DNA from: a virus
Reading direction: 5' to 3' (one strand)
DNA: 32,273 nt
Virus record (IMG/VR): IMGVR_UViG_3300025849_000131
Location: 1-32,273 of that record
The notes beneath the pieces were generated by a model. The model did no database searches. It was not told the DNA's origin and was given only the letters and a program-made list of their open reading frames with translations. Every line of letters starts with the position of its first letter. The first letter of the stretch is position 1. Below are positions 9,571 to 10,891 of this stretch, piece after piece. The position numbers and the translations under genes are program-made.

Positions 9571-9780
9571 ATGGATAGAGGTTATAAGATATATCCTACA
9601 CCAGTTGAGTTTAAGAATTTAAATGAAAGAACTAAGAAGGGGATTAAGTTTAAATTGGTTGTAGAGTTTGGTGGTGCTAAGAAAGTTGGTACTAAACTTT
9701 ATACTGATGTTGAATGGTCTAATGCAATATGGTCAATATATAGTTACCTATATAACAAACACGGAAGGAATGGACAATAG
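9571..9780 (+). CDS. Unknown protein, 69 aa or longer
   Basis: ATG 9571 is the first standard start in this frame, but the frame is open from 9499, and the upstream codons give a plausible protein sequence (AKKVAVDYSVINQEAAKWC) running straight into residue 1. The true product may start at a rare codon after 9499. The C-terminal part has VEWSNAIWSIYSYLYNKHG. No family recognised. The gene overlaps the methyltransferase start by 11 nt. Confidence 0.6.
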   Translation: MDRGYKIYPTPVEFKNLNERTKKGIKFKLVVEFGGAKKVGTKLYTDVEWSNAIWSIYSYLYNKHGRNGQ

Positions 9781-10891
9781 CAATATGGGAGTAAAGATCA
9801 ACTTATTGGATTTGTTTAGTGGGATAGGTGGATTTCACCTTGGACTAGAAAGAGCAGGGTTTGAAATCAACTCTTACAATTCAGAGATAGATAAATACGC
9901 AACACAAGTATATAAACATAACTTTAAAAATAGCAAGTATGTCGGATCAATTACAGATGTTCGAGGACAAGAATTACCAAGAATCAATGGAATCACCTTC
10001 GGAAGCCCTTGCCAGGATTTTAGCCTTGCAGGAAAAAGGAGAGGTATGTCTGGAGAAAGATCAAGTCTCATCCTTGAAGCGATTAGGCTTATCAAAGAAT
10101 GCCGACCAGATTTTTTTATCTGGGAAAATGTTAAAGGAACATTCAGCTCAAACAATCGCCAAGACTTTGCAGCAATCTTGCAAGCGTTTGCCAACATTAG
10201 GGGTTATAGACTCGAATGGCAATTGCTTAATACAAAGTGGTTTCTACCCCAAAATAGAGAGAGAGTCTACCTTGTTGGATATCTTGGAGACGGAAGTAGA
10301 GGACAAATATTTCCTATCTCAGAAGGCTGTAGACAGGTTAATGTCCTACAAGGACAACAAGCAAATACCTGTACCCTCACAACAAGATATGGAGCAGACG
10401 GAAATGGATCGTACATTACTGAACGTAAACAGTATGCACAAGAAAAAAAAATAACATCAGGAACTAAAAGAGGATATGAGACTGCTACATATGGAGATGG
10501 TATTGATTTAGCTTTTCCCGGTAGCACTTCTAGAAGAGGTAGGGTTGGCAAAGGTTATGTTCACACATTAGACACTGCTTGTAATATGGGTGTTTTAGAA
10601 GTGGGTGATTATAGATATGATAAGGGTTATAGGAAAAGAGAGGATGGAATCTCTCCAACTTTAAGAGCTAAAGCATCCACTGATATTTCTAGTACACCTA
10701 CTATAAATAAAATTAGGAGACTTACACCAATAGAGTGCGAAAGACTACAGGGGTTTCCTGATAATTGGACTAAGTACGGAAGTGAAGGGTTAATATCAGA
10801 TACACAAAGATATAAGATGTGTGGTAATGCTGTAACAGTTGATGTAGTAAAAGCTGTAGGTGAAAGAATTAAAGATGTAGTATATGGGTAG
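9770..10891 (+). CDS. DNA cytosine-5 methyltransferase (373 aa)
   Basis: Transfers a methyl group from S-adenosylmethionine to C5 of cytosine, probably protecting phage DNA from restriction. All key motifs are present: motif I DLFSGIGG (14-21), motif IV GSPCQDFS with catalytic Cys81, motif VI ENV (119-121), motif VIII QNRERVYLVG (161-170), then after the recognition region RRLTPIECERLQGFP and the final GNAVTVDVV. ATG 9770 is chosen because the frame upstream reads as the shadow of the previous gene; ATG 9785 is an alternative. No restriction enzyme gene is adjacent. A second ORF of 171 codons lies wholly inside it in the +1 frame. Confidence 0.95.
   Translation: MDNSNMGVKINLLDLFSGIGGFHLGLERAGFEINSYNSEIDKYATQVYKHNFKNSKYVGSITDVRGQELPRINGITFGSPCQDFSLAGKRRGMSGERSSLILEAIRLIKECRPDFFIWENVKGTFSSNNRQDFAAILQAFANIRGYRLEWQLLNTKWFLPQNRERVYLVGYLGDGSRGQIFPISEGCRQVNVLQGQQANTCTLTTRYGADGNGSYITERKQYAQEKKITSGTKRGYETATYGDGIDLAFPGSTSRRGRVGKGYVHTLDTACNMGVLEVGDYRYDKGYRKREDGISPTLRAKASTDISSTPTINKIRRLTPIECERLQGFPDNWTKYGSEGLISDTQRYKMCGNAVTVDVVKAVGERIKDVVYG
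9939..10454 (+). CDS. Nested ORF inside the methyltransferase gene (171 aa)
   Basis: An uninterrupted ATG-initiated frame in the +1 register relative to the methyltransferase. The protein looks natural: an acidic N-terminus, few odd residues, an even composition and a Lys-rich end. Residues near 120-140 (LLDILETEVEDKYFLSQKAV) match a DILExxVxxKYFLSxKA phrase that I remember from phage cytosine-methyltransferase-associated proteins, and NGNCLIQSGFYPKIERES before it also fits. This argues for a real overlapping gene rather than a chance ORF. Function unknown; possibly a partner or remnant of a second methyltransferase lineage. No clear ribosome-binding site. Confidence 0.5.
   Translation: MSDQLQMFEDKNYQESMESPSEALARILALQEKGEVCLEKDQVSSLKRLGLSKNADQIFLSGKMLKEHSAQTIAKTLQQSCKRLPTLGVIDSNGNCLIQSGFYPKIERESTLLDILETEVEDKYFLSQKAVDRLMSYKDNKQIPVPSQQDMEQTEMDRTLLNVNSMHKKKK

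Follow-up and report, generated by a model that had tools for sequence, protein, structure and literature searches.

Evidence for a gene nested in the +1 frame of phage C5 cytosine-specific DNA methyltransferase genes, and its possible relation to the sliding clamp

Does an open reading frame that lies wholly within a phage DNA methyltransferase gene encode a second protein and, if it does, what might that protein do? The question is raised by a viral sequence of 32,273 bp (IMG/VR record IMGVR_UViG_3300025849_000131, analysed at full length and referred to here as the window), in which a C5 cytosine-specific DNA methyltransferase (MTase) gene, identified from Pfam, TIGR00675 and the sequence, occupies positions 9770..10891 on the + strand (start ATG at 9770 or 9785). 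The first-pass annotation of this DNA had recorded a +1-frame ORF of 171 codons inside the MTase gene at 9939-10454, with an ATG start. These details were exact, and the ORF ends in a TAA stop. The ORF (9939..10454, + strand, 171 aa) is treated here as a gene on the basis of a match to PHROG_16143 and the selection tests described below. As it lies wholly within an MTase of about 370 aa, the overlap comprises the entire nested gene and slightly less than half of the host gene. By its gene content and sequence, the window appears to come from a marine phage of flavobacteria. The large terminases (TerL) nearest to that of the window are those of Nonlabens phages (54 % identical), and exonuclease VIII-like, Erf-like and terminase genes lie in the neighbourhood. 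A 69-aa ORF at 9571-9780, directly 5' of the MTase, ends at the MTase start and has no PHROG match.

The host frame is that of an intact C5 MTase. Motifs I (about 9809-9832), IV (FGSPCQDFS, about 9998-10024), VI (ENVK, about 10124-10135), VIII (QNRER, about 10250-10264), IX (RRLTPIECERLQGFPDNW, about 10718-10771), all on the + strand, and X are kept, as the first-pass annotation had stated. The protein matches Pfam PF00145 along its whole length (E=4e-71) and TIGR00675 (E=4e-70), and the catalytic PCQ, ENV and QxRxR together with the C-terminal motifs IX-X satisfy membership of the C5 class. The features of the nested gene are on the same strand. Its start ATG (9939..9941) is drawn from the MTase Tyr51 codon, TAT, and the first base of codon 52, and is preceded by an A-rich leader without a Shine-Dalgarno (SD) sequence (TTTAAAAATAG..., 9920..9938). 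Nested residues 4-8 are QLQMF (9948..9962), which fits a published beta-clamp-binding motif. An SGKM segment (10119..10130), identified by alignment, is common to the P1-like clade described below as SGK[MT]. The nested core, TLLDILETEVEDKYFLSQKAVDRLMSYKDN (residues 111-140, 10269..10358), is under the strongest synonymous constraint (ratio 0.10), and its DNA is also read as the tail of MTase motif VIII, RVYLVGYLGDGSRGQIFPISEG.

Relatives were gathered using the nested protein and, to avoid the bias that this introduces, using the MTase protein. The first set contained 158 loci. In 154 of these, the alignment begins at nested residue 1, with ATG at that position in every case, and 152 have no stop across the aligned nested part. 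Relatives recruited via the MTase frame rather than the nested frame likewise have an open +1 frame. The nested ATG is found in 98 of 102 non-redundant MTases, and about 98 % have a +1 frame that is open for at least 130 codons; the +2 frame is never open for more than 45 codons. The Tyr51 codon is TAT in 98/98, and across these genes Tyr is encoded by TAT 922 times and by TAC 510 times. When the synonymous codons of the same MTases were permuted, about 5e-5 of trials gave a +1 frame open for 135 codons or more. Set against the roughly 98 % seen, this excludes chance as the source of the nested frame.

The nested frame is widely distributed. A tblastn search of phage records matched 151 records, mostly streptococcal and annotated as cytosine MTase. 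A core probe, serving as a lead only, matched 132 phage records, including P1 Dmt, P7 and Vibrio, Sinorhizobium, Providencia, Mycobacterium and Faecalibacterium phages. The DILExxVxxKYFLSxKA core was found in the +1 frame of the MTases of streptococcal, lactobacillar, enterococcal, Clostridioides, Vibrio, Sinorhizobium and Mycobacterium phages and of P1 Dmt. In the phage loci retrieved, the core match occupies the +1 frame of a C5-MTase in every case except Faecalibacterium phage Toutatis (L167:2054-3474), where a natural frame change splits the MTase and the annotated gp14 begins as MTase and ends as nested core. The core is nested in the +1 frame in 80/80 P1-like IMG/VR loci, and no standalone copy outside a C5-MTase was found among these 80 loci or the phage and plasmid matches that were checked. 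C5-MTases with the nested frame are also carried by plasmids of Lactobacillus johnsonii (L255), Listeria monocytogenes (L257) and Levilactobacillus (L256), which places the gene outside phages as well. In the archaeal Methanobacterium virus Drs3, the +1 frame is open over the core and a start codon was not identified. A lack of homologues would have refuted the first-pass proposal of a second gene; hundreds of records and the PHROG_16143 match were found. The same annotation had called this degree of overlap rare, which holds for its kind but not among phage C5-MTases, where it is common.

The window-like and P1-like clades are related through the nested frame more clearly than through the MTase frame. 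Over the core, the nested frames share 40 % identity (mean BLOSUM 35.2) and the MTase frames of the same DNA 20 % (BLOSUM 1.1). Alignment of the full nested alignments of both clades with hhalign gave a probability of 95.5 (E=1.4e-8), to which the shared MTase frame may contribute in part. Landmarks common to both clades are a QxxMF-like N-terminus, SGK[MT] and LSxILE...KYFLSxKA, and nested residues L60, G62, K63 and M64 are at least 90 % conserved in the alignment.

Stops in the nested frame, which were sought in relatives as a possible refutation, proved rare (2 of 154 aligned loci, and premature in about 6/136 of the MTase-chosen set of the second clade). In L145, the MTase is intact and the nested frame stops after 38 codons, which may be a natural knockout or a sequencing error. 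The Morganella-type prophages L386, L394 and L429 share one stop (SYGKT*KGF) in the N-terminal half of the nested frame, and downstream of it the core is intact. Since an intact MTase accompanies a broken nested frame in a few relatives, the nested protein is not strictly needed for retention of the MTase. In two Pectobacterium prophages, L462 and L472, the MTase frame continues as the nested frame, placing the N-terminal part of the MTase and the nested core in one chain; a relative, L476, retains both frames. Mycobacterium phage KashFlow gp113 (L165:1324-2847) has an MTase insert of roughly at least 200 residues before the nested core, and the nested frame there is only 82 codons.

The nested starts have initiation signals, though not of one type. 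In the window clade, an SD-like sequence precedes the start in only 4/102; there is an A-rich leader instead, with TTT in 95/98 Phe codons at F46 and AAA in 94/97 Lys codons at K47. An A-rich, SD-free leader would fit initiation in Bacteroidota, although this is an inference. Javan246 has AAAGGAG upstream of the nested ATG, several P1-like members have AAGGAG about 8-9 bases 5' of it, and SD-like signals were found overall in 19/60 P1-like members compared with 9.2 expected. These starts bear on whether the nested frame is merely part of a frameshift product that joins the C-terminal half of the MTase. In the window, nine consecutive A stand just 5' of the nested stop, and natural frame changes occur nearby in some prophages and in phage Toutatis. 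However, at least seven A near the nested stop were found in only 1/52 relatives, on which ground a frameshift fusion was rejected, the positions of the nested stops vary, and the nested starts are conserved with initiation signals of their own. We regard a frameshift origin as very improbable.

Selection was examined in both frames. Across 102 relatives, the ratio of observed to expected synonymous codon entropy in the MTase was 0.82-0.89 outside the overlap, was 0.10-0.61 in successive intervals across residues 41-220, and climbed to 0.76 just beyond the nested end at residue 222. The first-pass annotation had held that conservation explained by the MTase frame alone would count against a second gene; as synonymous variation is depressed only in the overlap, that frame alone is insufficient. 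In close pairs of sequences, changes silent in both frames were found at 10.4 times expectation, and those altering both frames at 0.50. Changes silent in the MTase only were at 1.79 times expectation in the overlap compared with 3.1-3.2 times in control regions, and changes silent only in the nested frame were at 0.99 compared with 0.16-0.21. MTase-silent changes creating a nested stop were at 0 in the overlap and at 13-17 times expectation in control regions.

A similar pattern was found in the P1-like clade, where the substitution classes over the core were SS 11.6, SN 1.69, NS 1.27 and NN 0.32, and the nested N-terminal half is under weaker constraint than the core. In 80 P1-like loci, synonymous entropy fell from about 0.9 to 0.13-0.32 over the core and was 0.88 after it. 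However, these loci had been picked by their nested-frame pattern, and the test was therefore redone with loci picked by MTase residues 1-98, which are outside the overlap. In this MTase-chosen set, the median open run was 146 codons in the +1 frame and 57 in the +2 frame, a recognisable nested core was present in 125/143, and most of the core had an entropy of 0.21-0.30, compared with 0.85-0.94 over the roughly 150 residues that follow it. Dcm-type MTases, used as a negative control, gave a flat synonymous ratio (0.84-0.96) and no nested signal. We note that sequences within clades share descent, so that these counts are not independent events, and that the sequence collections overlap.

Reduced synonymous variation by itself names no cause, but the possibility that RNA structure, a DNA signal or codon bias constrains the DNA and leaves the open frame as a by-product is scarcely credible and already contradicted, given that changes silent in both frames are enriched tenfold while MTase-silent changes altering the nested protein are depressed, nested stops are avoided, nested amino acids are kept from one clade to another despite divergence of the nucleotides and of the MTase residues, and the start codon and initiation signals are conserved. 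Both frames are under purifying selection, and that on the nested frame exceeds what the MTase frame would impose; translation is inferred, as there are no ribosome profiling or mass spectrometry data. With homologues across phages and mobile elements that, where checked, are always in the same frame inside a C5-MTase, we are almost certain, from comparison of sequences alone, that the +1 ORF is a genuine dual-coded gene.

What the predicted protein does is less clear. It is not itself a methyltransferase. Pfam and NCBIfam searches gave no methyltransferase match for it, and this candidate was rejected as the protein contains no methyltransferase motifs. A split C5-MTase of the M.AquI alpha/beta type was also rejected, because the host frame bears all of the motifs and the nested chain none. 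AlphaFold2 gave no confident fold for the nested protein of the window (pLDDT 52.7), and in a P1-like homologue only the C-terminal helical core was confident (pLDDT about 95). Foldseek found no match in the PDB at E<=0.001, and the best viral match (E=0.0098) was a homologue of the nested ORF in Mycobacterium phage Thibault. A sequence search for solved structures gave no match to the nested protein, and matches to phrog_13773 and phrog_22526 were weak.

One lead comes from the N-terminus. The beta-clamp-binding motif is defined as Q-aliphatic-x-[LM]-[FL] or Q-aliphatic-x-[LM]-x-[FL] (PMC11139829). The nested N-terminus meets this definition, from which binding to DnaN is inferred; there are no binding data. 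The motif is present in 45/51 close relatives in the window clade, where 1.8 are expected from synonymous permutation, and in 19/60 P1-like members, where 0.7 are expected. Variants include QLQMF (in the window), QLTMF, QLDLF, QISMF, QMSMF and, in MM1 and Listeria, QMTLF. In some clades, the motif lies 10-20 residues before MTase motif IV and in another about 20 after it; because its position varies in this way, it does not simply mirror any single conserved segment of the MTase. However, P1 and many enterobacterial prophages lack the Phe, and 35/60 P1-like members have no recognisable motif.

A second lead comes from the core, which matches the profiles MTase_II and DrmMII; the PADLOC matches of the nested protein cover only a non-catalytic segment of 40-50 residues. 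The core of the window clade resembles the segment of Dcm/M.MvaI-type MTases that leads into the target-recognition domain (hhalign E=7e-5; score 39.7, compared with 14.7 +/- 2.9 and a maximum of 23.9 for shuffled sequences), with which it shares the pattern LxDILExxVxxKYxL[ST]. The P1-like core alone did not match that segment significantly (E=0.07). In the Dcm type, the segment is in frame and downstream of motif VIII, whereas the nested core is in the +1 frame on the motif VIII DNA itself. Common descent is thus hard to picture, and convergence or mimicry is possible. This segment is missing in cis from the phage MTases, in which motif VIII and the TLTTRYG segment are about 33 residues apart, compared with about 80 in Dcm. 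The first-pass annotation had linked DILExxVxxKYFLSxKA to phage MTase-associated proteins. The pattern does occur in such nested proteins, but it is also found in frame in Dcm-type MTases, so that it would not on its own prove a nested gene. In-frame core matches in an Acinetobacter Dcm-type MTase were considered as a contradiction and set aside, as they represent a separate in-frame segment in another MTase type with no nested signal.

We suggest that the nested protein is an accessory factor of the MTase that also binds the sliding clamp, and put the probability of this at roughly 0.4; function, partner and binding are all inferred. The N-terminal part, mostly disordered, would end in a clamp-binding peptide that docks on the host DnaN clamp, and the C-terminal helical core, with its resemblance to the Dcm-type segment that is absent in cis from the phage MTases, would dock on the MTase. 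Made in fixed stoichiometry from the same mRNA as the MTase by internal initiation, the protein would recruit the MTase to phage DNA that has just been replicated, or modulate MTase activity at such DNA. DNMT1 carries a PIP box that couples it to PCNA, and is alike in having a clamp-binding peptide linked to a C5-MTase. This is an analogy only, as the nested peptide is on a separate polypeptide, the clamp is bacterial and no binding has been shown. Against an accessory role, there are no translation data and no partner has been shown, and readings that involve only the clamp or only an MTase subunit remain close to it.

The nested protein may instead be real and independent of the MTase, for example binding the host sliding clamp and modulating host or phage replication, in which case it would still lie inside the MTase gene only because it was born there by overprinting. 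The N-terminal clamp motif in several clades is compatible with this, as are the Pectobacterium prophages, which keep the core although the MTase is broken. However, an independent gene would be expected to escape at some time by duplication, and every checked copy, including all those in the P1-like loci, remains in a C5-MTase; in addition, the core resembles an MTase segment. We find this independence doubtful. Somewhat harder to accept is a role as an obligatory MTase subunit, in which the protein would contribute a target-recognition module in trans and the clamp would play no part. A streptococcal record, DQ113772, labels the two frames as C5 methyltransferase alpha and beta subunit, and the resemblance of the core to an in-frame segment before the target-recognition domain that these MTases lack in cis would suit such a role. 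Yet all of the catalytic motifs are already in the host frame, some relatives with an intact MTase have a broken nested frame, and the conserved N-terminal clamp motif would be left unexplained. We consider a required subunit unlikely, and retain the clamp-binding accessory factor as the preferred reading.

The nested ORF as such is not new. Sampath and Vijayakumar reportedly described overlapping C5-MTase ORFs in Tn5252 in 1998, and Obregon is said to have described an overlap of ORF13 and ORF14 of phage MM1 in 2003. An 'apparent total overlap' of two C5-MTase ORFs was noted in Streptococcus thermophilus phages of the 5093-group (McDonnell 2017, PMC5601072), and that paper cites the same overlap for phage MM1 and a streptococcal conjugative transposon, with Tn5252 in its reference list. 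It contains no selection test, no clamp motif and no extension to P1-like, flavobacterial or mycobacterial phages (PMC5601072). The streptococcal overlapping ORFs are the same nested +1 ORF, homologous by sequence (the Tn5252 sequence was not compared), and the annotated genes MM1 ORF14 and P0092 gp45 occupy the corresponding position; in these elements, however, the product is labelled as a second methyltransferase. The nested protein of the window matches PHROG_16143 (DNA methyltransferase, 139 aa) over residues 1-134 (E=9.6e-16), and by sequence homology and nesting in the +1 frame of a C5-MTase it meets the requirements for placement with PHROG_16143 and the streptococcal overlapping-ORF family. 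Of 60 mostly P1-like nested members in an alignment, only 29 match PHROG_16143. The methyltransferase label of PHROG_16143 is inherited from the host gene, and the nested protein has no methyltransferase motif. McDonnell 2017 and PHROG_16143 together mean that the ORF was already known in streptococcal elements under a wrong label. No report of a phage-wide family, of its presence in P1 dmt, of evidence of selection or of the clamp motif was found in the open-access literature searched.

Annotation pipelines miss this gene, or mislabel it as a second methyltransferase, and it is carried by hundreds of phage contigs. To our knowledge, dsDNA phages rarely have long nested genes on the same strand, and such genes are usually judged by open length alone. 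The Rz/Rz1 spanin pair of lambda is a widely conserved case in which the whole of one phage gene lies in the +1 frame of a second; the proteins and their function are unrelated to those considered here, and joint function is proven for Rz/Rz1 but not for the nested gene. Dual coding is backed here by independent tests and extends to a textbook gene, P1 dmt, which opens it to standard genetics; in the window, the nested start could be removed without altering the MTase protein. At its broadest, and speculatively, the finding might reflect a single ancient overprinted gene, carried within C5-MTases by phages and conjugative elements from several bacterial phyla and perhaps by an archaeal virus. 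Its product would be a partner that binds the clamp and ties DNA methylation to the replication of the mobile element, the equivalent in bacterial viruses of DNMT1-PCNA coupling, and the gene would have gone unnoticed in the well-studied P1 dmt. We think it improbable that all of this is correct. The nested gene itself provides a link, open to testing, from DNA methylation in phages to the replication clamp.
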